From positions 496,001 through 560,000 of the forward strand of contig NZ_MWZD01000017.1 in assembly GCF_002982315.1 (NCBI RefSeq): a stretch of 64,000 bases of DNA, read 5' to 3'. Shown here in pieces: positions 7,287-63,172 of the stretch. How positions within the stretch are numbered: the first letter of the stretch is position 1; every line of letters begins with the position of its first letter. Origin of the DNA: Leucobacter massiliensis. Its GTDB lineage: Bacteria; Actinomycetota; Actinomycetes; Actinomycetales; Microbacteriaceae. The position numbers and the translations under genes were made by a program. The notes under the pieces are model-generated. The model had not been told where the DNA came from, did not search any database, and saw only the letters and a program-made list of their open reading frames with translations.

Positions 7287-7621
7287 CCCCCCATTGTGCC
7301 CGACGCCCCGCTTCGCCGCTGCCCATCGCCCAGCGCCGCTCCTCCGGCAGGCGGGAGACGAGCAGCGGGGGAGCTGCGCCACGGGGGAGCTGCGCCGCCG
7401 CCCGAAGGCCCCGGCTCGCCACGGCTGCGCAACACCCCACGCTGCGCGAGGGTGAAATCAGGGGTGAATTCGCGTCCGCCGACCAGCGCGCCATCCGAGC
7501 CGCGCGCACACTGAACGCGACTCATGACGTGTCACCCGGCAGGCCGGGCGACACGCGTTCCGTTCCGACGGGCGTGGCGGGATCCGCGTCCCGCGGCGCC
7601 CAACCCCGATCGAGGTTTCAG
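7287..7621. other. 335-base intergenic region between divergent genes
   Basis: No gene is seen. It holds a minus-strand CACAAT -10 candidate for the cat-like gene (7293-7298), a 15-bp direct repeat (7366-7380 and 7382-7396) and a possible plus-strand -10 CACACT at 7507-7512. An in-frame GTG at 7529 could extend the surface protein but would add a non-signal-like leader. Confidence 0.6.
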
Positions 7622-10600
7622 ATGCACTCCACCCCCGGGTTCAGGCACGCAGCGCGTGCCCTGACTCGACCCCGCAGCGGGTCGTCACGCAGCAGGCTCA
7701 AGGCGGCACTCGCGCTGTGCGGAGCGGCGGTGCTGACCGCCGGGCTCGCCACTCCGGCGGTCGCCGCTGGCGAGACGCTCGAAGTCGAGCTCTCGCAGGT
7801 CACCGGCACGCCGGACTTCGACGCGGACGACGCGCCCGGAAACGACTCCTCCCCGGACAACTCCGTGATCCGGACGAACGACCTGATCACGTACAACGTC
7901 GAGATCCGGGCCGAAGGGGGCGCCTCGAGCAACACCACCTTCGAGCTCGTGCTCCCGCTGGGCTATGAGCTCGAAGCGTTGCCCGCCATCTGCACGGGTC
8001 CCGGCTCCTCGCTCGTTCCCGAGCGCCTGCCTGCGCCTGAGCTCCCGCTCACCGCAAGCTCCTATGAGGGGCTCGGCCAGCAAGTGCTCAGGTGCAATGT
8101 GGGCGAGCGCACGCCCGGGTCGACGCTGAGCTACCCGGTCTCGGCGAAGGTGCGCGCGGAAGTGCCTAACGGCACGGCATCCGACGACGTCACGGTGTCC
8201 GTGGTGTCGGATCAGGTGCCGGAGCCCGCACGGTCGAACCCGGTGTCCTCGGTGGTGTCGTCCGCCGCGAAGTGGGACCTGTCGAAGAACTCCACCGCGC
8301 TGCAACCCGACACGGGCTATGTCGCCGGCAGCAGCCGGGCCTGCTCCTTCGACCCCGAGCAGATCTGCTTCCGCCGCACCGTCAGCATTCTCGTCGGCGC
8401 CCAGAACGGGGCGAAAGGCACATCGCCGCTGACCGGTCCGATCACCTTCCTGGACGACCTCTCGCCCGAATCGCTCTACCCCGAGGGCGCGACCGCCTCG
8501 CCGGCATGGCTCGCGGCTGGCCCTGACGCGCTCGCGCGGTACGGGGCGCGCCTCATCGGCTGCTACGACAGCAACCTCTACTCCAGCCCCATCCAGGGGA
8601 TCGGGCAGTCCGGTTGGGGCGGCACCGGAACCGAGGAGAACGCCGTGCGCGACAGCGGCTCCGTCGCGTGCACGCAGTCCGGTCCTGGCGCCCCGGTCTC
8701 GGTCACCGTCACCGGCACCGACTCCTCGCTCGCGACCTTCCCCAGCAGTGTCGGCGCGCCCGCCGGCGCAACCCTTCCCGCGAACACCGCTTACATCATC
8801 TCCCAGTCCCTTGAGTTCGAGATTCCGGTGGCGGCCGTCCGCGATCTCGGGTCGAGCGACGGCAGCACGCAGTCCTTCGAGATCGTGAACCGGTTCCGCG
8901 ACTTCGCGGCGACCGCGCTCGACGGCACGCCAAACGTGCCCGGCGCGGACGCGGAGTGGAACAACTTCCGCACGATCAACCTGGAGGTGAAGGCGCCGGG
9001 CGGCTTCGACAAGTACTTTGTCTGCGTTCCGGGCGCCGCAGGCAACACGCCCGCGGCCGACTTCAACCCCGGCTACGATTTCGCCGAAGGCCCTCCCGGC
9101 CAGCAGCGGCTCCACTCCGGTCAGATCACGGTGGCGCCGGGGCAGACCGTCGTCTCATCGCTCCTCATCAAGGGGAGCAACGCGGCCGCCGATCGTCCCG
9201 GATCCGCACTCGCCTGCGACGCCTGGGATCCCGCGCTCCTCACCCTCGCACCGGGCGACTATCCGGGAGTGAGCTCCGTCGGCCAGCGGTACCCCTCGAA
9301 CGGCGCAGCGGTCTGGCGCTCGGGTGAGTACGAGGCCGACCCTGATCCGGGGTTCCGCATCCAGTATTCGACCGGCCCCGGGGGCTCCGGCGACGCCTCC
9401 ACGTGCGCCTCCGGGCAGTGGTTCGACGATCCGGAGGAAGTTCCCGGAGGCATCGACGCGGTCTCGCGCGTCCGGATCTGGGTGGAGCTCGCCGCAGGCA
9501 GCCAGTACGACATCAACGAGACCTTCTTCTCGATCGCCCTCCGCGTCTCCGACGCCGCGACGGAAGGCACCAAGATCCCGAACTACGCCGGGGTGCTCTT
9601 CCACTTCGGCGAGCAGCAATCGCTCGATGAGCTTCTCGCGGATCCCGGAAACGAGTGGATCTCTTCCAGCTACGACCCCGCGAACCACTCGGGAAGCCTG
9701 GGGGACCGCCTCATCGCGGCTCCGGCGTACTCGCGGATCGAGAAGACCGTGAAGGGCCCGCGGGACTCGGACTTCTCCCATATCGTCCCGATCACCACCG
9801 GCGGAGATACGGTGCAGTACCGCCTCGCTCCCACGCTGACCTCCTCGGCGGCGACGCCGAGCGTGACCCAGCGCGTCATCGTCGAGGACTGCCTGCCGCT
9901 CGGCCAGAGCTTCCAGTCGGCGGCGCCCGCGCCGTCGCTTGTGACGACGGAGGTGCCGGCCGGAGCGGGGATCGAGTGTGGTCCGCGGGAGACGTACCTG
10001 CGCTGGGATCTCGGCGAGCGCGTCCCGAATGCCGCGATCGACCCGATCGAGGTGAGCGTCCGCGTGTCGCCGACGGCGGCCTCCGGAACCTACACCAACC
10101 GGGTTCGCGTGTCCGCTACCGGCGACCTCTCGACGCCCGAGCAGCGCAGCGACGAAGCCCAGGTCAAGATCGACCAACCCGCCGGCGTGAAGATCGACAA
10201 GGTGCCGCTCACCCCGGTCTCGGAGGTGAACCGTCCGGAGGAGTCGAATCTCGACCCGCTCCGGTGGCGGATTGAGCTGGCGAACGTGCAGGCGCCCGGG
10301 GCGCTCAGCGACGTCGACGTCATCGACGTTCTGCCGCGGTCGGGGGAGCGCGGGTCGGAGTTCACCGGCTCTCTGACCTTCTCCGACGCTGCCGTCGACT
10401 CCGGCGGGGACGGCGTCCGTATCCTCTACACCTCGGCGAGCGACCCGGTGCAGGATCCTCAGGACCCCAGCAACGCGCCCGGCGGCTCCACCGCCTGGTG
10501 CAGCGAAGCGGCCGGCGGAAGCGTCGTCATCGGCGCCGAGGCCTCCGTTTGCCCGGCGAGCGCCGAGGACGTCACGGCCATCCGCATCGTCCGGCCGGGC

Positions 10601-11858: not shown

Positions 11859-14800
11859 ATGAACGCACGATCACGCACGCTGCGCCTGGCAGCGGCACTG
11901 CTCGCGACCGGGGCGCTGGTCACCGGCCTCGCGGCTCCCGCCCTCGCCGAGGACACGACGGTGCCAGGGGTGGATCCTTCGTTCCGCTCGTTCTTCGAGC
12001 TCGCCCCCGCTGCGGTCGATGAGCATTCGGCTGACGCACAGTTCATGCAGATCCCCGCGGGCAGCTACAGCGCCGTCACGCAGAACGGACTGTACGTCCA
12101 AGCCGTGAACGACGGCGGCCGGACCTCGCTCGAAACCGTCGGGAGCTCCGACAGCCTCGTCACGAGCCGTATCGAGCTCTCCGACGTCCTCGGCCGCATC
12201 GACGCCGTCGCCCTCGTCGACGAAGGCGACGGGGCGCTCGTCGCCTACGTGCGCGGCCTCGCGGGCGGGACCTCCGCGCTCGTGCGCGTGGCATCACCGG
12301 AGTCGACCACGTGGGACGGCTCCCAGATCGCGACGATCACGGAGCGAGACGGATTCCACCCCGAGCGGCTCCGCCTCCTCGGCGACATCGGCAGCGGCCT
12401 CGTCGGAGTCGCGCCGAACGCGGACGGAGCCCTCGTGGCCCAGCGCTACGCCTACGATCTCACCCCCAACACGGCGCGGCCGGCGGTCGAGCTTCCCCTG
12501 AACCCCGGAGCGCAGCTCTCCTTCGACGCCAACTGGGGCAACTTCTATGCGGCGGGTGCCGGGGTCCTGGAGCGGGTGTCCCTCTACGACGCGAGCACCG
12601 TGCAGACCGCCGCGCTGCACGGGATGGGGCAGATCACCCGAGTCGTGCCGAGCGCCAGCCACGTGCTGGTGAGTGACGATGCGGGCCGGGTCGCGGTGCT
12701 GGACAACGCCAGCTTCGAGCTCGTCTCCCGCGTTGCGCTTCCCGGCCCTGCCGGCAGCGTGGTCCTCGGCGAGAAGACCGCGGAGGTGATCGCCTCTGCC
12801 GCCGACGGCTCGGCGATGTGGCGCTACGGTTTCGACGGAACCCCCCACCAGGCCATCGACCTCGGAGGCGCGAGCGTGCAGCACGGCTCGCTGCACGCTG
12901 CCAGTTCCTACGACACCACCTACACCTTCGCGGGAAGCGTGGAGGGCCAGAGCTTCCGGTACGTGGCCCAGTACCTCGAGCCGTACCGCATCAGCTACCT
13001 CGGTGAGCTCCGAGCCGAGGAGCGCGGCGAGGCGGTCGAGCTGAGTTTCGCGAGCCTCGGCGCGGAGGCACCCGGCGACACGGTCGACTATGCCTGGGAG
13101 TACAGCCTGGACGGCGGAGCGCACTGGGCCGGACGCACCCAGTCCTGGGATGAAGCGCGCGCCGCGGAACGCACCGCCGTCCACCCGCGCCCCGAGCTGC
13201 CGCCCGCGATCGGCCCGGCGCGGGCCGCACGCACCGACGTCAGCGCAGACGGGCCGCTCGCGACGAGCGGATACTCGGCAACCGAGTCATCCGTCACCCT
13301 GCCCGAGCACGCCCAAGACGCGCTGTGGCGGGTCAAGCTCACCAACGGCTACGGCACCACGGTGAGCGAGGCGCGCACCGTGAGCTGGGGGCCGTCGGAG
13401 GCGGGCGAGCCGGCGAGCTTCACCCGTCATCCGTCCCCCGTCCAGGTCGCGGCGGGATCTCCGGCCGTGTTCAGCGTCGCCGTGGCAGGCACCCCGGAGC
13501 CCGCGGTGTCCTGGCAGATCAAGCGCCCCGGAGGCGAGTGGGAGGACCTTGACGCGAGCGGAGCGGAGCTGACGATCCCCGCCGCCACGACCGCGGATGA
13601 CGGCGCCCGGCTGCGCGCCGTCGCGGTGCAGGGCGAGCGCCGCGTCGAGTCGAACCCGGCAACCCTGACGGTGCTCAGCGAGGCCGCGGCAGAGCTCGGC
13701 GCCGCGCCCGCGGGTGCCGTCACGATCGCCGATGCCCGCATGCGCTGGGAGCTCAACCAGTACTCGCGCGACTGGAAACGGGAAGCGTCCGGCGGGGTCG
13801 AGCTTGCCGGGGACCACGGCTTCGACTTCACCGGAGGCGTCGGCTGGTTCGATGCGCGGACCGGGGCGGCGCAGCTATCGTGGAGCGGCGTGGCGGACTA
13901 CCGTCCCTACGGCGGCATGAACGGACTGAAGCTCTCCTTCGCCAACATGTACCTCGCGGTGGATGCGTCAGGACAGGCGACGCTCACCGCGGAGCTGTTC
14001 TGGAACAACGGCGGCGGAGCGGGTGGTGCCGGCAGCAGCGGGGAGAGCGACGGCCGGACGCGGGTCGTCATCGCGACCTTCGCGCAGGCCGGACTCACCC
14101 GCAGTCCCGCAGCGATCGCGCTGCAGGCGACCCCGGAGTGGGACCACCGCAGCTACCTCGCACCCGGCCTCGGTGACGCGACCGTCTATCCGAGCAGTTT
14201 CCCTGCCTCGTTCCTCGACCACCTCGACAGCGGCCTGCGTCCCTGGTTCCTGCCGACGGGCAACCAGGACGTCCGCAAGCAGGGGACGGAGGTGACGGTG
14301 AGCGGTACGCTCACCACGCGGCCGGCACGAACCACCGGAGACCGGATCGACGCGCTCGACCCCCTCGGTGACGGCGCCCAGCACTTCGCGGACTCAGCGC
14401 CGCGGATCGTCGCGCAGCCGGCGGACGTGCGTGCGGCGGCGGGCGGATCCGCGACGGTCGCGGCGGCAGCGGTCGGTCACCCGGCGCCGACGGTGCAGTG
14501 GCAGCGGGAGGTCGCGGGAGCGTGGGCGGACATCGAGGGGGCGAATTCGCCGGCGCTCGAGCTGACGGAGCTGCGCGAGGGGACGTTCGTCGTCCGCGCG
14601 GTCTTCCGCAACGCGATGGGCACTGCGGTGAGCGACAGCGCCCGGGTGCAGGTCGCCGATCCGTCGGAGCCGGGACCGGGCGGGGAGCCGGGACCGGGAG
14701 GGGAGCCGGGACCGGGAGGGGAGCCGGGCACCGAGTCCGGCACTCAGGGCGGCGGGCTGGTGGCGCCCGGCGCTCCCGCCCAGTCCGCTCCGGGCTCCGC

Positions 14801-14945
14801 GCCCGGCGCTGCCGTGACCGGTGCGCAGCTCGCCGCCACCGGGGCCGGGGCGCTGTGGCTGTGGGCCGGCTCCGGTGCGGTGCTCCTGCTCCTCGGGGGC
14901 GCCGCGCTCGTGGCCCGCCGCCGGCGCGCAGCCCCGGCCCGCTGA
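11859..14945 (+). CDS. wall-anchored HtaA-like haem-binding surface protein
   Basis: A 1,028-residue exported protein. The signal peptide ends near ALAE (about residue 32). Residues about 50-390 look like a repetitive beta-propeller, followed by Ig-like domains (about 525-610 and 845-930). Between these, about 621-827, lies a region with HtaA-like spacing: MRWELNQYSRDW, then FDFTGGVGWFDARTGAAQLS and GLKLSFANMYLAV. HtaA domains bind haem at the cell surface of corynebacteria. A Pro/Gly repeat and an LAATG motif (991-995), hydrophobic helix and Arg tail end the protein; LAXTG is typical of class E sortase substrates. AAGGAGG at 11841-11847 precedes the start. The HtaA call is by pattern recognition only. 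Confidence 0.65.
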   Translation: MNARSRTLRLAAALLATGALVTGLAAPALAEDTTVPGVDPSFRSFFELAPAAVDEHSADAQFMQIPAGSYSAVTQNGLYVQAVNDGGRTSLETVGSSDSLVTSRIELSDVLGRIDAVALVDEGDGALVAYVRGLAGGTSALVRVASPESTTWDGSQIATITERDGFHPERLRLLGDIGSGLVGVAPNADGALVAQRYAYDLTPNTARPAVELPLNPGAQLSFDANWGNFYAAGAGVLERVSLYDASTVQTAALHGMGQITRVVPSASHVLVSDDAGRVAVLDNASFELVSRVALPGPAGSVVLGEKTAEVIASAADGSAMWRYGFDGTPHQAIDLGGASVQHGSLHAASSYDTTYTFAGSVEGQSFRYVAQYLEPYRISYLGELRAEERGEAVELSFASLGAEAPGDTVDYAWEYSLDGGAHWAGRTQSWDEARAAERTAVHPRPELPPAIGPARAARTDVSADGPLATSGYSATESSVTLPEHAQDALWRVKLTNGYGTTVSEARTVSWGPSEAGEPASFTRHPSPVQVAAGSPAVFSVAVAGTPEPAVSWQIKRPGGEWEDLDASGAELTIPAATTADDGARLRAVAVQGERRVESNPATLTVLSEAAAELGAAPAGAVTIADARMRWELNQYSRDWKREASGGVELAGDHGFDFTGGVGWFDARTGAAQLSWSGVADYRPYGGMNGLKLSFANMYLAVDASGQATLTAELFWNNGGGAGGAGSSGESDGRTRVVIATFAQAGLTRSPAAIALQATPEWDHRSYLAPGLGDATVYPSSFPASFLDHLDSGLRPWFLPTGNQDVRKQGTEVTVSGTLTTRPARTTGDRIDALDPLGDGAQHFADSAPRIVAQPADVRAAAGGSATVAAAAVGHPAPTVQWQREVAGAWADIEGANSPALELTELREGTFVVRAVFRNAMGTAVSDSARVQVADPSEPGPGGEPGPGGEPGPGGEPGTESGTQGGGLVAPGAPAQSAPGSAPGAAVTGAQLAATGAGALWLWAGSGAVLLLLGGAALVARRRRAAPAR
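14667..14720 (+). repeat. 18-bp in-frame tandem repeat, three copies
   Basis: Three near-identical 18-base units encode EPGPGG repeats in the wall-spanning linker of the HtaA-like protein, and a partial fourth follows. Unit number could vary between strains without breaking the frame. Confidence 0.9.
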
Positions 14946-16616: not shown

Positions 16617-19600
16617 TTACTCGATCAGGTGACGCGAGTTCTCCGTCGCCCGGGCCGCGCGAGCGCGGCGTCGTGCGATCCAGAGGATCCCGCCACCGGT
16701 GAGCAGGAGCACGAGTGTCGTCCAGAGTGCCGCGGTCGCCATCTCGCCACCGGTGACGGGCAGACCCGGCTTGGGCGGCGTTGTGTTGTGCTGGGTACAC
16801 AGCGGCGAGTCGGGTGTGCACACCGGCGCCACACCGGTCATCGCGACGACGTTATCGAGCTGATGGTCGCCCTGCTGGTCGTAGGCCTTCACCTTGACCG
16901 TGTAGGACACGGTGTACACCTCGCCGTAGGGCACCGAGCCCGTGATCCGGATCGTGTTCCCCTCGGTCACGGCCGTGAGATCGGTGCTGGACGCTGCCGG
17001 CCCCGCGGTGAGGGTGGCATCGTCGAGGACGTCCTTCATGTAGTCGGTGTAGTCGATCGCGGCGGGCGCCGAGTCGGCGCTTTCCGAACGGTTCGTGAAG
17101 GTCAGCGTGTACGTCACGTTCTGGCCCTCCTCCACCGAGGCGCCCGAATCGGGGTTCGAGGACTTCTCCACGAACACCGCGGACACGGGGTTGACGGTGC
17201 AGTTCGGGCGCTCGCCGGCGGTCGGCACGCACTCCGCTGGCGGGTCCTCGCCCTGCGGGACGAGGAAGTTCCCCAGGCGGTCGTCGCCGCGCGACCCGTC
17301 GGCCTTCACCGTGACGGTGTAGGTGACGGTGGCCTGCGCCCCCGTATCGAGCGAGCCGGTGACGGTGAAGCGGCCGTCGCTGATCGGCGAGACCGTCAGC
17401 GCGTCGCTGGACGCCTCCGGCTGGGTGGTGACGTCGGCGTCGTCGAGGACGGCCGTGAGGACGTCATCGCGGGCGACATCGACCGGCGCGGTGCCGGTGT
17501 TCTCGAAGTGGAGCGTGTAGGTGGCGGTGTCCCCGGCGCGCAGCGTCGTCCCGGAGGCCGGGTCGACGCTCTTCCACGTCGTGAGCTCGCCGATCGGGTT
17601 CTCCGTGCACGACACGCCCTCGTCCCCGCATGCGGGGTCCGGGTTGTCGCTGTCGGCGAGCACATTGCCGAGCCTGTTGTTGCCGCGCTCGCCATCGGGC
17701 TTGACCGTCACCGTGTAGTCCACCGTCACGGCCTGTCCCGCGGCGAGGGTGCCCGTCACGCCGATGTTCTCACCGTCGCGCACGGCCGTCAGCGCCGCAT
17801 CGGAGGCCGTGGGGCCGTCGCCGAACTCGGCGTCGTCGAGCACGTCGGCGAGGTCATCGCGATAGTCGATGCCGCCGGGCGCCGTTCCGTCGTTCTCGAA
17901 GGACAGTGTGTAGCGCACCACCTGACCGGCGTCGACCTTCGTGCCGGAGGCGGGGTCGACGCTCTTCGAGACCACGAAGTGGGGCAGCAGCACGGCGTTG
18001 TCGGCACACGCAGGGTCTTCTCCGGCGTTGGGCGCGCACGCCACGTTCAGCAGCTGGTGATCGCCCTCGTTCGTGACGACGACGGAGTACGTCACCGTCG
18101 CGGACTCGCCGGGCGCCAGCGCGCCCTCCCACGACAGCGTCGGAGCCGCGTACGACACCGTGCCAGATGTCGCCTGCGCATCCTCGCCGTAGCTGGCATC
18201 ATCGAGCACGCCCGTCAGGTCATCGCTGAAGCTTGCGGGGGCGTCCGCGGTGAACGCGCCCGTTCCGTCATTGGTGACCTCGATCGAGTAGGTGACCGTG
18301 TCGCCCGTGCGGGCGGTCTCCACGTCCGAGCTCTTCTCGATCGACAGGTGCGGGACCCGGTGCTCAATCGGATCGCACAGGGCCGTGTCGTTCGCCTCGC
18401 ACTGGGCGAGCGCGTTCGTCAGGACGCTGTCGCCGCGATCCGCGAACGGCCGCACCTCGACGGTGTACGACACGGTGTAGTCCCCGCCGGGAGGGACGGC
18501 GCCCGAGACGCGGACGGTGTTCCCGTCCAGCGTGGCGGAGAGGCCGGCGCCAGAGGAGCTCGGCCCCGACACGAGGTTCGCATCATCGAGCACGGCGGAC
18601 AGATCGTCGCTGTTCTCGACCGTCGCGTCGGCCTGGCCCGTGTTCCGGAAGTGCAGCGTGTACGTGATCTGCTCGCCCGCGGCGACGTTCCCCGAGGACG
18701 GATCCGCGGTCTTCCACTGCTGCAGCGCGGCTCCGGGGATCTGCACCTGGCGGCACGGATCCGAGGGATCCTGGGCGAGCTCCACCGGGAGGCACGCCAC
18801 GTTCACCAGCTGCTTGGTGCCGCCCTTGTTCGCGTCGTATTCGACGTCGTAAGAGACCGTCACCGAGTCGCCGGCTGCCAGGGGTCCCGACCACGACAGG
18901 GCATCCCCGTCACGCGCCGGGGTGCCCGAGGACGCCGTCAACGATCCATCCACGAAGTCGCCGTCATCGAGCACGTCTGACAGGTCATCCTCGAATGAGG
19001 CGGGGTTGCTCGCCGTCGCGTCGCCCGGCCCCTGGTTCGTGATCGTGATCTGGTAGTTCACCGTGCCGCCGTTGGTGGGCAGCTCGGAGGTGCTCGAGGT
19101 TTTGGCGATCGTGAGCTTCGGGAGTTCCGTCGTCGTCGATGCGCAGTTCTCTTCGCCGGAGGACAGCGCCTCCGGAATGCAGGCGGTGTTCAGCACCGTC
19201 CCGTCGCCGGCGTTCGTCACGGTGACCGAATAGGTGATGGTCGCCGTTTCGCCGGCGAGCAACGGACCTGACCAGCTGATCTCGGTGCCGTCGAGCGTGG
19301 GCGTTGCACTCGTGGTTCCCTCCGAGAAGGCGATCGCGAGGTCGTTGTTGAACGTCGCGTCGTCGAGGATTCGCGTGAGATCGTCGGTGAAGGAGGCAGG
19401 GTTGGCGGCCGTGAAGTCCGCCTCGCTGGTGTTGGTCAGCGTGATCTCGTAGTCGACCACGTCACCGACGGCGGAGTCCGCACCCGCGGACGAGGTCTTG
19501 GCGATCGACAGGCCTGGCGCGCAGGATCGGGTGTCGTCCGTGTTGTTCTCCGCGTTCGGATCCTCCTCGTTGCCGAGAACGGAGGCGCCGTTCACGATGC

Positions 19601-20774
19601 ACTCGGACGGGTTCGCGTTCGCGTCCGCTTCGATCCGGAAGGTGATCGACTGGTCCACCCCCAGGCGGCCGCCGCTCACCGTCACGTTGGAACCGGAGAT
19701 GTTGGGCGTGACGTTGCCGATCACGGTCGGGTTGGTGAGGCCGGCGGGGAGCGAGTCGGTCACGGTCCATCCGCTGGAGACGCCCTCGCCGTTGTTGGTC
19801 ACCCTGACGTCGTAGCTGATCCGGTTGCCGGGGGTGAAGGACGCCGGTCCCGTCTTCGAGATCGAGAGGTCGGCCGGGAGGCCCGGAATCGCGGTGCCGT
19901 CGTTCAGCGAGGAATGGGGACCGTCGACTCCCGGGAACACGGTGAATGTCGGGTTGTTCGAAGCCGCGTTCTGGATTGCGAGCTGGAAGACGTCACCCGA
20001 GCCGTTGTCCGAGAAACCCAGGTTCCCATTGCCGAAGGTCCAGGAGGCGCCGTATGGCGAACCGCCGGCGGGCAGCGTATTGGGGAACGTCCGGACCTCA
20101 CCCGTGGTGAAGTTGTAGCGGAAGAGCGTGCCCGTGGCGTCCGCGCCCCATCCGAAGCCGTCTTTGAACGAGAAGTCGAATGCCCCCAGATTCGCCGAGA
20201 GGGTGATGGTGCGCTGCGCGCCGGTGGCGACATTGATCGCGAGGACGGAAGACTTCTCCGCGGTCCCGACGTAGAAGAGTCCGTCGGCCGGGTTGAACGC
20301 GCCCGAGTAGAAGGCCGTAGTGCCGTCGGGGTGGCGATACACCTGGGTGCCTACGCGCTGGGTGACGCCGTCCTGGCCCACGCGTACCAGAGCGCCGAAG
20401 GGAAAGGCGGTGGTTGCGCTGGAGGCGCCGGAGACCATGCCGTAGATGTAGTTGTCCGCCGTGTTGAAGCCGATGGCGTTGTAGGTCGTGACCGAGGGAC
20501 CGCCTTCGTCGATGAAGGCGAACTTGCCGGTGCCCGTGGTCTCCGCTCGCTGCAGCTGCGTCGGCGTCTCCTGGGCGATGAACACGGTTGGCGCTGCCGG
20601 GCTGAAGGCGTCACCGGGTGCCGCGTGCGCGGGATCGGAGGGGGCAAGCGTGAAGCTCGCCAGGGACATGCCCGCGCCGACGACGGCGACCGCGAGGGTT
20701 CCGGCGAGCAAGCGCTTGAGAGACGTGGCTGAGCGGCGCCTCGGGAGTGACCCCGAGGGAGGCGGGTGATGCAT
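16617..20774 (-). CDS. giant LPXTG surface protein with DUF6923-like head and repeated DUF11/DUF7927-like stalk
   Basis: A 1,385-residue exported protein. The signal peptide core is at about 20-43, with cleavage near AHAA (52-53). Residues about 60-300 resemble a DUF6923-type propeller head. One DUF11-like domain (302-418) is followed by seven related stalk repeats of about 130 residues. Each repeat opens with a K-S/T-S-type strand (for example LSIAKTSS), carries a D-D-L-x-x-V-L-D-D-A-like core and most contain paired cysteines. LPVTG at 1338-1342 is followed by a helix and a basic tail. The ATG at 20774 begins the signal peptide; the ribosome binding site is weak. The gene is inverted relative to the other surface genes. 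It is likely a long rod-like adhesin; the ligand is unknown. Confidence 0.82.
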   Translation of the reverse strand: MHHPPPSGSLPRRRSATSLKRLLAGTLAVAVVGAGMSLASFTLAPSDPAHAAPGDAFSPAAPTVFIAQETPTQLQRAETTGTGKFAFIDEGGPSVTTYNAIGFNTADNYIYGMVSGASSATTAFPFGALVRVGQDGVTQRVGTQVYRHPDGTTAFYSGAFNPADGLFYVGTAEKSSVLAINVATGAQRTITLSANLGAFDFSFKDGFGWGADATGTLFRYNFTTGEVRTFPNTLPAGGSPYGASWTFGNGNLGFSDNGSGDVFQLAIQNAASNNPTFTVFPGVDGPHSSLNDGTAIPGLPADLSISKTGPASFTPGNRISYDVRVTNNGEGVSSGWTVTDSLPAGLTNPTVIGNVTPNISGSNVTVSGGRLGVDQSITFRIEADANANPSECIVNGASVLGNEEDPNAENNTDDTRSCAPGLSIAKTSSAGADSAVGDVVDYEITLTNTSEADFTAANPASFTDDLTRILDDATFNNDLAIAFSEGTTSATPTLDGTEISWSGPLLAGETATITYSVTVTNAGDGTVLNTACIPEALSSGEENCASTTTELPKLTIAKTSSTSELPTNGGTVNYQITITNQGPGDATASNPASFEDDLSDVLDDGDFVDGSLTASSGTPARDGDALSWSGPLAAGDSVTVSYDVEYDANKGGTKQLVNVACLPVELAQDPSDPCRQVQIPGAALQQWKTADPSSGNVAAGEQITYTLHFRNTGQADATVENSDDLSAVLDDANLVSGPSSSGAGLSATLDGNTVRVSGAVPPGGDYTVSYTVEVRPFADRGDSVLTNALAQCEANDTALCDPIEHRVPHLSIEKSSDVETARTGDTVTYSIEVTNDGTGAFTADAPASFSDDLTGVLDDASYGEDAQATSGTVSYAAPTLSWEGALAPGESATVTYSVVVTNEGDHQLLNVACAPNAGEDPACADNAVLLPHFVVSKSVDPASGTKVDAGQVVRYTLSFENDGTAPGGIDYRDDLADVLDDAEFGDGPTASDAALTAVRDGENIGVTGTLAAGQAVTVDYTVTVKPDGERGNNRLGNVLADSDNPDPACGDEGVSCTENPIGELTTWKSVDPASGTTLRAGDTATYTLHFENTGTAPVDVARDDVLTAVLDDADVTTQPEASSDALTVSPISDGRFTVTGSLDTGAQATVTYTVTVKADGSRGDDRLGNFLVPQGEDPPAECVPTAGERPNCTVNPVSAVFVEKSSNPDSGASVEEGQNVTYTLTFTNRSESADSAPAAIDYTDYMKDVLDDATLTAGPAASSTDLTAVTEGNTIRITGSVPYGEVYTVSYTVKVKAYDQQGDHQLDNVVAMTGVAPVCTPDSPLCTQHNTTPPKPGLPVTGGEMATAALWTTLVLLLTGGGILWIARRRARAARATENSRHLIE

Positions 20775-20829
20775 GGACGAGCTCTTTTCTGTATTCGGTC
20801 CCGCTGCTATCGCGGGATTCGAGAAGCTC

Positions 20830-21095
20830 AGCCCCCACACCGCGTCCTCAAGGAGGTCGCAGCTCCCGCGGGCTACGTCCTCCCGGCTGATCCGTTCACT
20901 GCGGTGGCCGTGAAGATCGGCGAGACCACCGTCTCGGACAACGTCGACATCGTGAACACGCAGCAGGACGTGCCCGAGCTGCCCCTCACCGGTGCTGCAG
21001 GTCAGGCCATGCTCATCGCAGCTGCGATCGCAGCGGTCGCCATCGCTGCGGGGCTCGTGCTGGTGAACCGCCGCCGGCAGGACCTGGACGCCTAA
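20830..21095 (+). pseudogene. C-terminal remnant of a SpaA-type pilin or anchored surface protein
   Basis: About 88 codons starting near VLKEVAAPAGYVLP match the end of a SpaA/prealbumin-like domain (the APAGY motif is typical). They are followed by LPLTG in VPELPLTGAAGQ, a hydrophobic helix and an RRR tail, with a normal stop and terminator. There is no signal peptide or upstream pilin body: the sequence before about 20830 is the 5-prime flank of the inverted giant gene. The rest of the gene was apparently removed when that gene arrived or was inverted. No start codon with a ribosome binding site is evident, so expression is unlikely. Confidence 0.75.
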
Positions 21096-21272: not shown

Positions 21273-24200
21273 ATGGTCACATCCAGTGTCAGAGCAGTGC
21301 CGCCGCAGGATCCGGCACCTTCGCATTCACAACGCCTGCGAGCCCGGTTGAGGAAGGTCAGTGCGGCTTCTCTGGCAGTGGTGGTTCTGGGCGGCCTCGC
21401 CGCCGCACAGCTTCCCGCGTCGGCCCAGGCTGCCACCGTCTATGAAATCGAGGGCGCGTGGGGCGAGAACACCCCGGGCACGGTCAAGACCGGTGACGTG
21501 GTCAGCACGACGTGGCGCTACAACATCAACGACGACGGTCCCGCGCCCACGAACGATCCCGTCGACAACGTCACCCTCACCTTCGCCGCACAGGGGGCGG
21601 TGTTCACCACGCTTCCCAGCGTGTGCAAGGTCGAGGGGGTCAGCCCGGCCTCGTCGATTTCTGCAGACGGCAAGACGATGACGTGCAACCTCGGAACACG
21701 GGACCAGGGCACCGCCGAACTCGTGATCACCGGGATGTCGGTGCAGGCCGTGGATGGCGAGCGCGTCACCGTGTCCGGGAGCGCGGGTGCCGCCTCCGCG
21801 GAACTGCCTCCCCTGTCCGTGACGAACGTGTTCGCGATGGATCTGAAGTTCGACGGGACGGCGACGAGTCGCCCCAGCCAGAACGGAGCGAATCAAGAGT
21901 TCGAGCTGCCGTGGTCGCTCCGGCACGGACCCAATGGACCCGCGGGTCCCGGCTCGGTTTCGTACCGCATCCAGGTCACCGACTCGCTGAACCAGGATAT
22001 ACAGCTCTTGGGGAGCGGCCCGTGCCAGGCTCTGGACCTCGTTTTCTCCGGGTATCCGAGATCCGATGGCGCCGCTCCTGCGGACCAGCGGGCCGCATTC
22101 CCCTCATGCACGATCACGCGCGACTCGAAGAACAACTTCACGCTCACCCTGAGCGGACTGAACTACACACAGGCGTCTTATCCGACGCAGGACGGCGCCG
22201 GGATCGACCTGCCTTCGGGCTGGAATGTGATCGCATCGGGGAAGCTCAGGATGTTCTTCTCGTACACGGCTCCGGGCAACCTCACGGTGACGGCGAGCGC
22301 GCCGACGTACACCGCCCAGAATTCCAGTGCGACCTCCGCTGACGATCCCGCGAACAATGCTCACCCGGTGAGCTACACGCGTGGCAGCGCCACCGGCGGA
22401 TGGCAGCCTCAAGCCATGAGGCCGCGCCCGATCGGGAGCTACTGGGATGACACGTTCCGGCAGTTTGCCGGCGGTCCGGTCCGTCAGGGCGTTGGGGTCG
22501 TGCCGACGACGAACACCACGACGAACCAGGTGTGCACCATTCTCGACACGAAGTACGTCGAGTTCGAGCAGGCCGCCGTGGGTGTGTCCAGTGGCGGGAA
22601 AGTCACACCAGACCCGAACGTCACGGAGTGGTACTACGTGGGCGCCGACCCCCTGGTGAATCCCAGCAGCTCCTCCTACAACCCGAACGGATTCAACTGC
22701 GATACCGGCTGGGGAACCAGCGACTGGGTCTCCACTCCGCCGGCAGATCGAAGCCGCGTGAAAGCCGTCCGCGCTGCTATCGGGAACCAGAGCGGCTTCG
22801 ACATGACCGGTCGTGAGTTGGTGATGTTGTATGTCGACTCGAAGATCAAGGCAGGAGTCCCAGAAGGCCAGGACATCTGGGAGTGGGGGTCGTACAAGCT
22901 CGGTTCGGACGCCTGGGTGTCCCCGCAGCGAGAGATGGACCCGGCGAAGAAGCCGGCCTACGGCACAGCCACACCGAACTCTCGCTACCCCTTCACCGGA
23001 GCGTTCCGGGACGTCATGCGGGTGATCGCAGCCCAGCCCACCATCACTAAGGAAGTGGATGCGAGCGAGACGATCCCCGGCGCAACGGTCACCTACACGC
23101 TGCGCTACCGCGCTGAAGGAGCGACGAACATCACCGTGCCCGGCTACAAGGTGGTCGATACCCTCCCGGCGGGGATGAGCTTCGTGCCCGGCAGCGCTTC
23201 AGTGGCTCCGAGCTCGGTGAGCGGGCAAACCCTCACCTGGGACTTCGCAACCGTCAACACGAATACGGACTACGTCATCACCTTCCAAGCGACGATCCCG
23301 GGCACCGCCGTTCCCGGAGCGAAGATCGTGAACTCCGCCGCTTCGAGCATCGGCCAGCACCGGGCAACAGCGAACGCCACGACCACGATCCGCGAGAGCG
23401 GGCTGACCCTCCTCACCAAGACTGCGGAGCACACAAAGGTCCCCCACCAGGATGGCACCGCACAGGACTCGTGGACGGTGCGAATCACCTCAGCAGACGT
23501 CAGGCCGCAAGCGTTCACGGACACGATCGATGTGCTCCCCTACAACGGTGACGGCCGGGGAACGCAGTTCTCCGGTGACTACCAGCTGAGCGGACCGGTT
23601 CAGGCGGTCGCCGGCGCTACCGTCTACTACACCCGGGCCGACCCCGCGACGCTGAAGGCCGACCCTGCGGACCCGGCGAATGGAGCGGCGAACGACCCGA
23701 GCGGGAATACGGCGGGTTGGGATACCACGTTCATGCCCGACGCGACGGCAGTGCGCGTCATCGGGCCCGCGCTGGCACCGTCCGCACAGCAGGAGTTCAC
23801 CATCCCCGTGATCACCGCGGGGGCAGCAGCTGAAGACGTCTACGTGAATGTCGCAGAGGCGCGTGCTGAGCGGACCAAGCTCAAGATGCGTACCTCGAGC
23901 AGATTCGAGATCGCAGCAGTCAATTCGATCGCCCTGAAAAAGTACGTGCAGGACTCCGCCGGGGAATGGCACGACGCGCAGAACGTGGACGACTACCCCA
24001 CCCGCTACGCGGGGGAGACGGTTCGGTACCGCCTGGTCGTGACCAACACGGGCGACCAAGCGCTCACCGATGTGCGGATCACGGATGACCGGGTGGATCT
24101 CGCCTCCCTGAAGCCACTGCCGGACGGCCTCGCGGCCGGGGCCGTGATCCCGGAGCTCCTTCCTGGCGACGACAACGCGGTCACGATCGAGTACTCGATC

Positions 24201-24773
24201 GTGCTGGGCGACGAAGCCGCTGGCGGGCCGCTGATCAACAACGCGTGCGCGATCCCCGCAGACACGGAGGTCGATGAATCCTGCGATCCCGCAGGGATCA
24301 AGGTCGACACCTCGGCGCTCTCGTGGGAGAAGGTGAACGCGGGAGACACGACCGAGCATCTCGCTGCTTCGGAGTGGTCGCTGGTGCGAGTCGATTCGAA
24401 GGGCAGCCCGATCGGCTCCCCGATCGCGGTGAAGGATTGCATCGCAGACACGGCCGCCGGGTGCCGTGATGCCGATGTGGATCCGGAGCCGGGGAAGTTC
24501 AGGATCACCGGGCTCACTGCCGGGGACTATGTTCTGACGGAGACGCGCGCCCCCGCGGGGTATGTTCTCGACGACACGCCGCGTCAGATCACCGTGCGCG
24601 GTGAAACGGCGTTCGAAGTCCCCATCGAGAATGTGCAGTCGGAGGTTCCGCAGTTGCCGCTCACCGGAGGGACAGGGACGTTTGCGATCTTCCTCGGGGC
24701 TGGCGGTGCCGGTCTGGTGATCGCGTTCATTCTGTGGGTGCAGCGGCGTCGCTCTCGCGTGGTCGCCGGCTAG
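21273..24773 (+). CDS. LPXTG surface adhesin with DUF11 and SpaA-like domains
   Basis: A 1,166-residue exported protein. The basic N-region and hydrophobic stretch (about 28-50) form a signal peptide ending near AQAA. A long unassigned beta-rich region is followed by DUF11-type repeats (TITKEVDASETIPGATVTYT; TRYAGETVRYRLVVTNTGD). A SpaA/prealbumin-like domain lies at about 1013-1126 (LSWEKVNAGD, DYVLTETRAPAGYVL). LPLTG at 1128-1132, a helix and an Arg tail complete the wall anchor. The ATG at 21273 follows GAGGAA by seven bases. It may be a pilus tip or stand-alone adhesin. G+C looks slightly lower than in neighbouring genes, which fits horizontal movement. Confidence 0.85.
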   Translation: MVTSSVRAVPPQDPAPSHSQRLRARLRKVSAASLAVVVLGGLAAAQLPASAQAATVYEIEGAWGENTPGTVKTGDVVSTTWRYNINDDGPAPTNDPVDNVTLTFAAQGAVFTTLPSVCKVEGVSPASSISADGKTMTCNLGTRDQGTAELVITGMSVQAVDGERVTVSGSAGAASAELPPLSVTNVFAMDLKFDGTATSRPSQNGANQEFELPWSLRHGPNGPAGPGSVSYRIQVTDSLNQDIQLLGSGPCQALDLVFSGYPRSDGAAPADQRAAFPSCTITRDSKNNFTLTLSGLNYTQASYPTQDGAGIDLPSGWNVIASGKLRMFFSYTAPGNLTVTASAPTYTAQNSSATSADDPANNAHPVSYTRGSATGGWQPQAMRPRPIGSYWDDTFRQFAGGPVRQGVGVVPTTNTTTNQVCTILDTKYVEFEQAAVGVSSGGKVTPDPNVTEWYYVGADPLVNPSSSSYNPNGFNCDTGWGTSDWVSTPPADRSRVKAVRAAIGNQSGFDMTGRELVMLYVDSKIKAGVPEGQDIWEWGSYKLGSDAWVSPQREMDPAKKPAYGTATPNSRYPFTGAFRDVMRVIAAQPTITKEVDASETIPGATVTYTLRYRAEGATNITVPGYKVVDTLPAGMSFVPGSASVAPSSVSGQTLTWDFATVNTNTDYVITFQATIPGTAVPGAKIVNSAASSIGQHRATANATTTIRESGLTLLTKTAEHTKVPHQDGTAQDSWTVRITSADVRPQAFTDTIDVLPYNGDGRGTQFSGDYQLSGPVQAVAGATVYYTRADPATLKADPADPANGAANDPSGNTAGWDTTFMPDATAVRVIGPALAPSAQQEFTIPVITAGAAAEDVYVNVAEARAERTKLKMRTSSRFEIAAVNSIALKKYVQDSAGEWHDAQNVDDYPTRYAGETVRYRLVVTNTGDQALTDVRITDDRVDLASLKPLPDGLAAGAVIPELLPGDDNAVTIEYSIVLGDEAAGGPLINNACAIPADTEVDESCDPAGIKVDTSALSWEKVNAGDTTEHLAASEWSLVRVDSKGSPIGSPIAVKDCIADTAAGCRDADVDPEPGKFRITGLTAGDYVLTETRAPAGYVLDDTPRQITVRGETAFEVPIENVQSEVPQLPLTGGTGTFAIFLGAGGAGLVIAFILWVQRRRSRVVAG

Positions 24774-25149
24774 GAGAGCACGCGCCCGCGATGGAGGGGC
24801 GGGGTGAGTGTCGATCATGACACTGATCCCGCTCCTTCAGCGCACTGAGCGGGGGAAGCGTCTAGGCTCGGTACAGACGTCGAGTATGACGTCGCCCGCC
24901 AGGCGCAGGGGAGCTGGCCTGGCGGGCGAAGTCGGGCGCAACAGGGAATCTGAACGACAGAAGTGTGGCTTCAAGATTATGTTGCTCCTGGCGAGTGCCT
25001 GTCGGGGAGTTCAGCCACTCAGAAACATAGACACGAGCGGTCCTGGATTTCTGACGGAGGTTCCGAAGTACCTTGACGAATACGATCCGCCCTGCGATGA
25101 GGGCGAATAGCGTGCATGCGGCACGGGCGCGCAGTGCGCGGGTGCAGCG
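24774..25149. other. 376-base intergenic region before the sigma-factor gene
   Basis: Contains the adhesin terminator (24893-24928) and about 220 further bases where no convincing gene or clear ECF-type promoter is seen. The stretch around 24950-25080 looks less GC-rich than the coding sequence around it. Confidence 0.5.
24893..24928 (+). terminator. hairpin after the SpaA/DUF11 adhesin gene
   Basis: A perfect 12-bp stem (24893-24904 with 24917-24928) and a 12-base loop. Confidence 0.75.
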
Positions 25150-26916
25150 GTGAAGAGTATCGCGGTTGCTGCGGCATCTGACATGGTGCTGGTCGAGCTG
25201 GCCCGCAGCGGAAACATGGACGCGTACGGGGAGTTGTGGCGGCGGCACCACTCCGCGTTGCTCGTTGCGGTGCGGTGCTTCACCGGCTTCGACGCCGACG
25301 ATGTCGTGCAGGAGACGTTCCTTCGCCTGCTGCAGCAGCTCCAGGAGGGTCGCGGCCCGGAGACCGCGTTTCGCGCCTATGCGATTATGACCGCCCGCAA
25401 TGTTGCCAGAAACATGGCCCGCAGCCGGAGCGGTGACGAGATCACCGGTGTCGAAGACCACGTCTTCGATGCGCGGGCCACGGACATGCCGGACACGGCG
25501 GATACGGTGCTGAAGAGCGCATTCACGCAACAGGTGTTCTCGTCGCTGCCGACACGGTGGCAGGAGGCGCTCTGGTACCGGGAAGTCGAGGGGCTCCAGG
25601 TCCAGGAGCTGTCCGTTTACCTGGGTATGAGCGACAATGCGGCGTCCGTGCTCCTGAAGCGTGCCCGTGAGGGGTTCAAGCAGGCGTGGATCGCTGCGAA
25701 CCTCGAAGCTGCATCTGGCCTATCCGCCGACTGCCGATGGGTGGTGGAGAGACTCCCGCAGTTCGTTCGGGGAAAGGCCACTGCGCGAGCCGAGCGGAAG
25801 CTAGCCGAACATTTCGAGAACTGCACCAGATGCGCGGTGCTCTCCAGCGAGGCCGAAGGTGTGCATGAGCGTCTGGCGATGGTGCTCCTTCCCGCCGTGT
25901 TCGGCGGTGCCGCCTTCACTGGGTATGCGGCATGGCTGCAGTCGGGGGCCGCGCCGGCGGCGGCTGTGGCATCGGGGAGCGCGCACGCCGGGCAGGCGGG
26001 TTCTCTCGTCGGGAGCAGCGCGGCCAAGGCTGCGGTGGCGCCGCTGGCGGTGCTGTCGGTGGCGGCGCTGGCGGCTTCGATCGTGTTTTCAGTACCGCTC
26101 GATTCGCAGAGCCCAGGCACGCTGCACGCAGAGGACGCCCCCGTTCGGTATGCGGAGACGCTTGCGGACAGCGATGGCCACGAGGATGCCCGCACGGCTG
26201 AGGACCGGGATCCTGCGAGCGGCGCGGACGGGGCAGCTGCTGGGCCTGCTGAGAGCACGGGGGAGGACCCGGTCGACGACGCGAAGGCGGGGGCGGGCGA
26301 GTCTGCGGCGGCGGATGCTGCGGACGCCGACGGCGCGGCCGACTCGCTGACTGAAGCCCCGCCGAGTGCCCCGCCTCAGCTGACAGCCACCCCGGCAGAC
26401 GGGATCGAGGTCGGCGTCTATCCACGGCTGCTCGGTGAGGGCGCTCCGCATGCGACCGTGCATCTGGCCATGGTGAATCAGAACGGGCAGGCCGCTGAGG
26501 ATACGGTTACTGCGGACGCTCAGGGCCGCTGGGCGTACACGCCCACACAGCTCATGGGTCAAGTGACCGTTACGGGCTATCAGGAGTACTCGTTCTCGGG
26601 GGAGAGCCGCCAGGATGGCGTGGTGCATCTGGGCGTCTATGACGTCGGTTATGGTCTCGACATTCAGGTGGATGCTTCCGGGCCAGGGCAGACTACGATT
26701 CGCGTGAGCGGCCTCTCAGCACCCACGAAGAATCAGGTGGTGAATGTGGAATCCACCGCCCAGGGCATGCTCGCTCAGCAGGTCCCCGCCACGGCGCCGG
26801 GCGAAGTGCTCATCATCGTCGCCTACGCGCGTTCAGCGCTCGGTGATCTCCGGTTCTGGCAGGGAGCGACATCCGAGGGCCCGAGGCGAACCTGGTGGCG
26901 GACCCTGGAGCAGTAG
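25150..26916 (+). CDS. ECF sigma factor fused to zinc-finger anti-sigma-like, membrane and C-terminal domains
   Basis: A 588-residue one-piece signalling protein. Residues about 12-90 are sigma region 2 (FDADDVVQETFLRLL) and about 125-182 region 4 (LPTRWQEALWYREVEGLQVQ). A cysteine-rich segment follows with His221, Cys225 and Cys228 (HxxxCxxC, plus Cys195), the zinc-finger anti-sigma signature. Two hydrophobic stretches (about 244-262 and 294-314) would place an acidic, Ala-rich linker and a beta-rich domain (about 395-588) outside the cell. Such C-terminally extended ECF proteins are known in actinobacteria. It sits just after the anchored adhesin, its most obvious candidate target. The start is either GTG 25150 or ATG 25183; neither has a good ribosome binding site. 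Confidence 0.8.
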   Translation: MKSIAVAAASDMVLVELARSGNMDAYGELWRRHHSALLVAVRCFTGFDADDVVQETFLRLLQQLQEGRGPETAFRAYAIMTARNVARNMARSRSGDEITGVEDHVFDARATDMPDTADTVLKSAFTQQVFSSLPTRWQEALWYREVEGLQVQELSVYLGMSDNAASVLLKRAREGFKQAWIAANLEAASGLSADCRWVVERLPQFVRGKATARAERKLAEHFENCTRCAVLSSEAEGVHERLAMVLLPAVFGGAAFTGYAAWLQSGAAPAAAVASGSAHAGQAGSLVGSSAAKAAVAPLAVLSVAALAASIVFSVPLDSQSPGTLHAEDAPVRYAETLADSDGHEDARTAEDRDPASGADGAAAGPAESTGEDPVDDAKAGAGESAAADAADADGAADSLTEAPPSAPPQLTATPADGIEVGVYPRLLGEGAPHATVHLAMVNQNGQAAEDTVTADAQGRWAYTPTQLMGQVTVTGYQEYSFSGESRQDGVVHLGVYDVGYGLDIQVDASGPGQTTIRVSGLSAPTKNQVVNVESTAQGMLAQQVPATAPGEVLIIVAYARSALGDLRFWQGATSEGPRRTWWRTLEQ

Positions 26917-62657: not shown

Positions 62658-63172
62658 CGTTCTTCCTGCTCGAGCGCACTGAGTGGTGCCGTGGTACTCA
62701 CGTGGTACTCGGGATACTGAATCGGGCTCATTGAGCTCATTGAGTCGCCGCGCTGCTGCCGCGCACTGGTGCATCTCGGATGTGCGCGCGTTTGCCGTCG
62801 AACGTCTGCTCTCGTCCTTGTGCGCGTTTGCTGCGCAACGTTGCGCGGTCCAGTGCCGGCGTACACTGGTGGGCGTAGGGCCTCCCCGTGAAAGCGCCGA
62901 AATAATGCGCCGGTTGAACTCGCGGGCTAGGGCACCGCACGGCGGGCCATGACAGGCAGTGCTCAGATCGTACAGCCCAGTCGTGGCTCTTGCTGTGTCT
63001 CGGGTCGACATGCGAAGGTGGTTCTAGGGGTCCCGCTGGGAGTGCGGAATAAGGCACCGACAGAAACCGGGGGACAGCCCCTACCGTCGAGGGCCGTTGC
63101 AGCCAGTTCACCATGGTCGAGAGACTGAGGACAGGCCAGCAGCGGCCCCTCGCTTGCGCTCTGTGCCCGTTT
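62658..63172. other. 515-base region without a supported gene
   Basis: By eye G+C is lower than in the preceding genes. Short frames exist on both strands but none resembles a known family. A GTGGTACTC repeat (about 62690-62710) and GAGCTCATTGAG-type repeats lie near its left end. It could be the non-coding edge of an integrated element next to tRNA-Ser. Confidence 0.4.

Follow-up and report, generated by a model that had tools for sequence, protein, structure and literature searches.

Genes and features at the locus

The window, by which we mean the whole analysed stretch of 64,000 nucleotides from Leucobacter massiliensis, contains a gene whose product joins an ECF sigma factor, a zinc anti-sigma domain, a membrane region and a C-terminal extension in one chain (Table 1). 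The protein is an ECF sigma factor (sigma-70 group 4) with regions 2 and 4 only, as seen from Pfam matches above the curated cut-offs to Sigma70_r2 (residues 41-94) and Sigma70_r4_2 (128-174), a TIGR02937 match above cut-off (2e-16) and PDB sequence matches of the sigma part to CnrH (4.5e-10) and E. coli sigma-E (6.8e-10). A third Pfam match above its cut-off, zf-HC2 (195-229), covers the zinc motif, whose HxxxCxxC consists of H221, C225 and C228 and is completed by C195 to the four-ligand anti-sigma pattern. All four residues are invariant across an alignment of nine sequences, the window ECF and eight relatives. Among 134 distinct homologues, 129 carry HxxxCxxC and 127 also have a Cys or His ahead of it; the window ECF has both elements, which define a zinc anti-sigma (ZAS) domain. 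Regions 2 and 4 and HxxxCxxC in a single chain had been described in a first-pass annotation of this DNA, and the Pfam matches and the invariant zinc ligands bear this out.

Table 1. Features of the fused ECF gene and its surroundings (positions within the window)
Feature	Position	Strand	Basis and remarks
DUF11/DUF7927 LPXTG gene	16617..20774	-	start as in the first-pass annotation; located where srtC and the bulk of the shaft gene would be expected; shown for context, outside the system
3' remnant of shaft (major) pilin gene	20843..21095	+	NF033902, 4e-16 over profile positions 458-540
Large LPXTG pilin, 1166 aa, tip-type by inference	21273..24773	+	SpaA, DUF11 and isopeptide-domain match; LPLTG end
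Promoter-like site TCAGAA-N14-GTGTCTA	25028..25054	-	matrix scan, 13.8 bits; beside ECF, pointing away from it
Fused ECF sigma / zinc anti-sigma / membrane / ectodomain protein	25150..26916	+	588 aa, GTG start, clade I
ECF sigma regions 2 and 4 (residues 1-184)	25150..25701	+	Pfam PF04542, PF08281; PDB sequence matches
Zinc anti-sigma motif C195-x25-H221-x3-C225-x2-C228	25732..25836	+	PF13490, 6.3e-6
Hydrophobic helix (residues 242-260)	25873..25929	+	Kyte-Doolittle mean 1.66, borderline; helix in AlphaFold2 model, confidence falling past 240
Probable spanning segment (residues 286-304)	26005..26061	+	Kyte-Doolittle mean 1.62, borderline; basic residue close to its start and, farther along, an acidic linker
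Probable ectodomain, two Ig-like beta-sandwiches (residues 412-585)	26383..26904	+	AlphaFold2, profile match, Foldseek

The genome contains four further places that match the window ECF at 1e-20 or better, the nearest of which, on contig C2, encodes a paralogue with 74% identity over the full length. Relative to C2 the ECF and the large pilin are under purifying selection, with dN/dS values of 0.16 (0.08 for the first 235 residues) and 0.14, respectively, at a dS of about 1, which means that the comparison is near saturation. Given this identity and a dN/dS of 0.16 at such a dS, the reading frame of the ECF is not a chance one.

The cluster on contig C2 (L037) has the order class C sortase (5e-74), major pilin (NF033902, 4e-111), large LPXTG pilin and ECF. 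With a class C sortase, an isopeptide major pilin and a second large LPXTG pilin, L037 and a further cluster, L040, qualify as SpaA-type sortase-assembled pilus clusters, whereas the window has kept only the large pilin and the shaft remnant. Similarity of the window DNA to C2 starts at 20843, inside the major pilin gene, runs to 25949 and resumes at 26380-26903, and the 109-aa ORF 20766-21095 retains only the last part of a major pilin; the window therefore holds a 5'-truncated pilus cluster from which srtC and the greater part of the shaft gene are missing. None of the five full major pilins of the genome lies in the window, and all class C sortases above cut-off are encoded on contigs other than the window's.

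The gene preceding the ECF, which had been taken for a wall-anchored adhesin, does end in LPLTG and its stop codon lies 376 bases before the ECF start, as reported; it is, however, the large pilin of a pilus cluster, with 78% identity to its counterpart in L037. Three other anchored proteins had been named nearby. The sorting signals of those at 7622 and at 20774 (minus strand) exceed the TIGR01167 cut-off, whereas that of 11859 falls below it (14.3 vs 15.9 bits). The latter gene (11859-14942) has Ig-like and HtaA matches above cut-offs and so may encode a haem-binding surface protein. The local surface programme suggested for this region therefore stands in so far as the ECF is linked to a surface structure, a sortase-assembled pilus cluster, while a wider island of anchored proteins found no support.

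Membrane topology and C-terminal domain

Two hydrophobic segments are present behind the zinc motif, as had been stated from the letters, but both are borderline by hydropathy and only the second probably spans the membrane. The first (242-260) is perhaps the last helix of the anti-sigma domain and not a spanning segment. By the positive-inside rule the protein probably has a single spanning segment (286-304) with the C-terminus outside. Clade I proteins, to which the window ECF belongs, carry a K or R near the start of the second segment, and clade II proteins have a short or weak first segment, with a run of basic residues immediately ahead of the second. Because of these clade II features two spanning helices were judged less likely; if both segments span, the C-terminus would be inside. 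The wider charge statistics are weak: in 115 homologues with two segments the net charge averages +0.5 before and -1.2 after the second segment, an asymmetry that is weak in view of medians of 0 and -1, and it is about 0 on either side of the first. The charge asymmetry is more distinct in clade II. Counted at a hydropathy of at least 1.6 within 200 residues of the zinc motif, 62 of 124 homologues have one segment, 55 have two, four have none and three have three.

The AlphaFold2 model of the full ECF (47 sequences; mean pLDDT 74, pTM 0.36) shows strands from residue 412 to 582 that form two beta-sandwiches, in agreement with the beta-rich C-terminal domain of the earlier description. The sigma, zinc and C-terminal parts are for the most part modelled with high confidence, but over residues 266-354 the pLDDT falls below 50; modelled alone (nine sequences), the C-terminal part reaches a pLDDT of 77 and a pTM of 0.54. 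The search of this part against structure and profile libraries, which had been proposed as a check, yielded an Ig-like fold; a profile matched the large adhesion protein 6xi3 (5.7e-8), which was also ranked first by Foldseek, where an S-layer protein came second, a biofilm-associated protein eighth and many antibody folds were among the matches. As the Foldseek TM-scores are low, the C-terminal part is classified as Ig-like and nothing beyond that.

Linkage of fused ECF genes to class C sortases

Fused-ECF matches were found in 46 of the 54 genomes of the genus. These 54 genomes contain 117 class C sortases above the cut-off, of which 22, spread over 16 genomes, have an ECF match no more than 10 kb away and 95 do not; conversely, 25 of 150 ECF matches have a class C sortase at this distance and 125 are unpaired. 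The ECF counts refer to matches and not to genes, since a gene sometimes produces two, and scoring covered up to 24 candidates per genome. After merging of neighbours 22 of 104 remained linked, whereas 2000 random placements gave 2.3 on average and never more than 8, an expectation that assumes uniform placement in 3.2-Mb genomes. Sortases below the cut-off were near an ECF match in 0 of 33 cases among the matches listed (Fisher p 0.0026). Among 11 fetched loci that have a sortase but no ECF match, an unfused ECF of 208 aa was present once and none was detected in the other ten.

Within the family, 94 of 249 genomes contain an ECF match at 1e-20. The 35 fetched loci of other genera (L042-L076) contained no shaft or class C sortase match, and by motif test an LPXTG protein was absent from 34 of them, the 35th having a weak FPQTS match; the expectation that homologues always neighbour LPXTG proteins was thus contradicted. 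One genome outside the genus (G121) carries a complete type I cluster. In the genomes compared, the association with anchored proteins is specific to certain clades of the genus and one genome of another genus.

Some genomes of the genus are rich in relatives of the fused ECF, namely G295 with 20 and G260 with 12 matches. The fetched loci of G295 have weak LPXTG matches only, and G260 has one locus with anchored proteins (L164). In L041 (G096) a clade-I ECF at 7604-10434 is interrupted by stops while its upstream motif is intact, and the fetched 19 kb are without shaft or sortase match; the locus is read as a lost pilus cluster. L038 and L128 carry ECF genes at both sides of the pilus cluster, one long and one short without hydrophobic segment.

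Gene orders and co-inheritance

Comparison of the linked loci revealed several arrangements. The type I order srtC-shaft-large pilin-ECF is found in L037, L040, L124, L125, L126 and L129, and the type II order ECF-large pilin-shaft-srtC, on one strand, in L173, L178, L184, L187, L188, L189 and L191. A divergent layout is present in L038, L127, L128, L164, L185 and L186, and a convergent or other layout in L153, L177 and L192; in L190 the genes are separated by 7 kb.

A quick tree, which carried long-branch warnings, was calculated from 133 rows of the 134 homologues (one short match was dropped), with the window set to 'pilus' by hand. Its 26 'pilus' rows do not represent a frequency, because the nine loci L184-L192 were fetched for their nearby sortase. 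Linked rows require 9 changes on the tree vs 24 in shuffles, and at least 5 are forced by starred branches. In the midpoint-drawn tree clade I comprises 11 rows, of which 10 are linked (the smallest starred set around it has 13 rows, 11 of them linked), and clade II is a set of 10 rows with 9 linked. A third set of 10 rows includes four linked ones (L038 twice, L153, L192).

The distances between ECF proteins agree with those between the SrtC proteins of the same loci. Mantel tests, which did not include the window (no sortase) or, for L038 and L128, the second ECF, gave r 0.86 for 23 linked loci and r 0.77 for 18 loci after thinning of near-identical ones, each with 0 of 5000 permutations as extreme; on 21 loci without L164 and L190 the value is 0.94, and inclusion of both lowers it to 0.86. 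Within clade I r is 0.65 (6 loci, 122/5000) and within clade II 0.85 (6 loci, 102/5000). In genomes with several clusters, the nearest relatives of an ECF and of its sortase mostly share the same other locus.

Alternatively, ECF and pilus genes could simply be co-mobile cargo of one element and their linkage a product of transfer instead of regulation. The complete cluster lies on a contig of 17.9 kb (G000:C2:1-17889), where the ECF is followed by a serine-recombinase-like gene and a MobF family relaxase, and contig C2 is perhaps a mobile element; a near-identity search of a plasmid collection, however, returned no match to it. Five linked loci (L124, L125, L153, L187, L189) are moreover situated on contigs of more than 3 Mb, and transfer leaves unexplained both the motif before srtC described below and the rearranged orders that keep the pair together. 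We consider cargo of this kind very improbable as the sole cause.

A further alternative is that the protein resembles ECF52/53 in being a sigma factor for envelope stress in general, which would sit in pilus islands by history and exert no pilus control. Linkage recurs in several tree groups with differing gene orders, the ECF and SrtC distances agree also after thinning, and the motif precedes srtC, all of which makes this decidedly unlikely, even though pili are not close to the homologues fetched from other genera or to most matches within the genus and SCO4117, from the similar ECF52 group, is described as a pleiotropic regulator (PMC5826349). A fused ECF that travels with sortase-built pilus genes in Leucobacter and probably turns them on is the reading we prefer.

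A candidate promoter motif

In all six type I loci the region upstream of srtC contains TCAGATT-N13-(G/A)TGTCT. Written as TCAGAT-N14-GTGTCT, the motif precedes srtC in all six, exactly in four and with one mismatch in two; the defining loci stem from G000, G251, G252, G255 and G274 of the genus and from G121 outside it. In the 54 genomes the exact pattern had 24 matches vs 5 for the pattern read backwards. At a spacing of N14, 11 of 13 exact matches have a class C sortase or an ECF match no more than 10 kb away, as opposed to 1 of 11 at N15-17. Seven of these 13 come from motif-defining genomes, and four of the six others are located at a clade-I ECF or class C sortase (two in G277, one each in G096 and G268), those of G293 and G295 not.

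A matrix built from five type I sites was run over 2.56 Mb of fetched DNA, of which clade-I loci make up 0.23 Mb (9%). All 13 sites of at least 20 bits fell in clade-I loci; six are training sites or identical to one and seven are not. At a threshold of 12 bits the matrix is unspecific, with 39 of 185 matches in clade-I loci. In the window's own genome a loose pattern gave 6 matches, 3 of them at the two clade-I loci, vs 5 for the backward control, so that the loose motif alone is not significant. Additional sites precede the shaft gene in several loci and both ECF and large pilin in L127. One further site of this genome (G000:C9:572596-572622, TCAGATT...TTGTCTA) is outside the window, and no LPXTG match is listed near it.

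Scanned at 12 bits, the window contains three sites, 25028-25054 (minus strand), 13315-13341 and 62963-62989. The first-pass annotation had suggested looking for a shared motif upstream of the genes at 7622, 11859, 20774, 21273 and 25150; the clade-I matrix, which derives from loci outside the window, finds a site only at 25150, on the minus strand, and a promoter common to the five genes found no support. The site beside the ECF has counterparts at 8345-8371 of L037 (13.8 bits), 9915-9941 of L126 and 7863-7889 of L129, which point back through the pilin gene. It is directed away from the ECF in the window, L037, L124, L125, L126 and L129; L127 and L041 are the only loci where it faces the gene, and L040 has none. 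The away-pointing site may possibly reflect antisense transcription, a bidirectional site or the relic of an inversion.

ECF -35 elements usually contain AAC, which is absent from TCAGAT-N14-GTGTCT. The motif might accordingly be the site of another regulator, with the ECF using a different promoter. That it is often directed away from the ECF would fit, as would the partial inversion of the element ends in some sites (TCAGA / TCTGA) and an exact clade-I motif in G268 (G268:C1:239679-239704), 107 bases before a class C sortase match and more than 300 kb from the nearest ECF match. On the other hand, the two halves differ in their conserved bases, their spacing is fixed as in two-element promoters, and in the fetched loci every site of at least 20 bits, including the seven that are not training sites, is in a clade-I locus; we therefore regard a foreign regulator as unlikely and retain the motif as candidate promoter of the ECF sigma factor.

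For clade II, dyad searches for a sigma-specific motif did no better than shuffles. In an alignment, conserved TGCTA-like bases stand immediately ahead of the ECF start; we read them as resembling an extended -10 element of the vegetative type.

Proposed regulatory switch

What is known of how Gram-positive bacteria control pilus formation mostly concerns cytoplasmic regulators. RlrA, RofA/Nra and EbpR are sortase-pilus regulators encoded with the pilus cluster, and they are cytoplasmic DNA-binding proteins, not membrane-tethered sigma factors. For the protein described here we propose, with a probability of roughly 0.65, a membrane-tethered one-component ECF sigma factor that is dedicated to its own sortase-assembled pilus cluster. 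At rest, the zinc anti-sigma domain would hold sigma regions 2 and 4 of the same chain, while one membrane segment would place the acidic linker and the two Ig-like domains outside. An outside cue, which could be contact, the state of the wall or the supply of pilin, would lead to intramembrane cleavage or a conformational change and set the sigma domain free. The free sigma domain would then initiate transcription from TCAGATT-N13-GTGTCT promoters that precede srtC and the shaft gene in its own cluster and, in some loci, the ECF gene itself.

The window has lost, together with srtC and the shaft gene, the sites that would be expected to precede them, and the ECF may therefore act in trans or be on its way out. 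Any action would be restricted to trans, with the complete paralogous C2 cluster as the most likely target, and the selection observed so far argues for a protein that is still functional.

More tentatively, one might extend the proposal to the whole family: self-contained tethered sigma factors would serve in several groups of the tree as dedicated switches of sortase pili and move with the pilus genes as a cassette, each would sense the surface, perhaps pilus or attachment, by its adhesin-like Ig domains, and those of clade I would in addition fire a promoter backwards through the pilus genes as a damper. Taken together, these elements form a possible but rather doubtful picture.

Should the dedicated switch prove true, receptor, brake and promoter reader would be united in one chain and inherited with one pilus cluster, which would be the simplest switch of this kind. 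One of the little-studied ECF kinds that bear extensions would gain a concrete target, consisting of a defined gene set and a candidate promoter, and genomes with several paralogous pairs would offer tests of specificity between related switches.

Relation to known systems

Sigma-I is another kind of sigma. The SigI/RsgI systems of Clostridium thermocellum resemble the present one, as far as their published description goes, in that several paralogous sigma systems, whose membrane sensors respond to substrates outside the cell, control an extracellular machine; they differ in that sigma and anti-sigma are two proteins and the target is the cellulosome.

C-terminally extended ECF groups were correctly described in the first annotation as known from actinobacteria (PMC8999054, PMC5826349). 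The groups ECF48, ECF52 and ECF53 are described as sigma proteins extended by a zinc-finger domain and by either one or two membrane helices (PMC8999054), and by that description the window ECF fits this kind, its membrane helices being assigned by hydropathy only. SCO4117 of Streptomyces coelicolor is the sole ECF52 of its genome, and release by proteolysis has been proposed for ECF52 (PMC5826349). According to these sources ECF52 and SCO4117 are, like the window ECF, actinobacterial and combine sigma, zinc finger, membrane region and a further C-terminal region in one chain. Their C-terminal region, in contrast, is a carbohydrate-binding module, for which the window protein had no Pfam match at E 1; it has two Ig-like domains instead, and an assignment to ECF52 by this module was rejected. 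Compared with SCO4117 as described, the window type is also pilus-linked and has several paralogues per genome. The fused build itself is hence already known, whereas a search of the open-licence PMC literature found no report of an ECF tied to sortase pili, nor of a cassette-like inheritance or of the candidate promoter.

IutY of Pseudomonas putida (ECF243) is likewise a fusion of sigma and anti-sigma and is described as activated by regulated intramembrane proteolysis; in the same description it differs in belonging to iron uptake in a Gram-negative bacterium, with no pilus system (PMC8999054). The L. massiliensis genome contains one M50 (site-2 type) protease gene.
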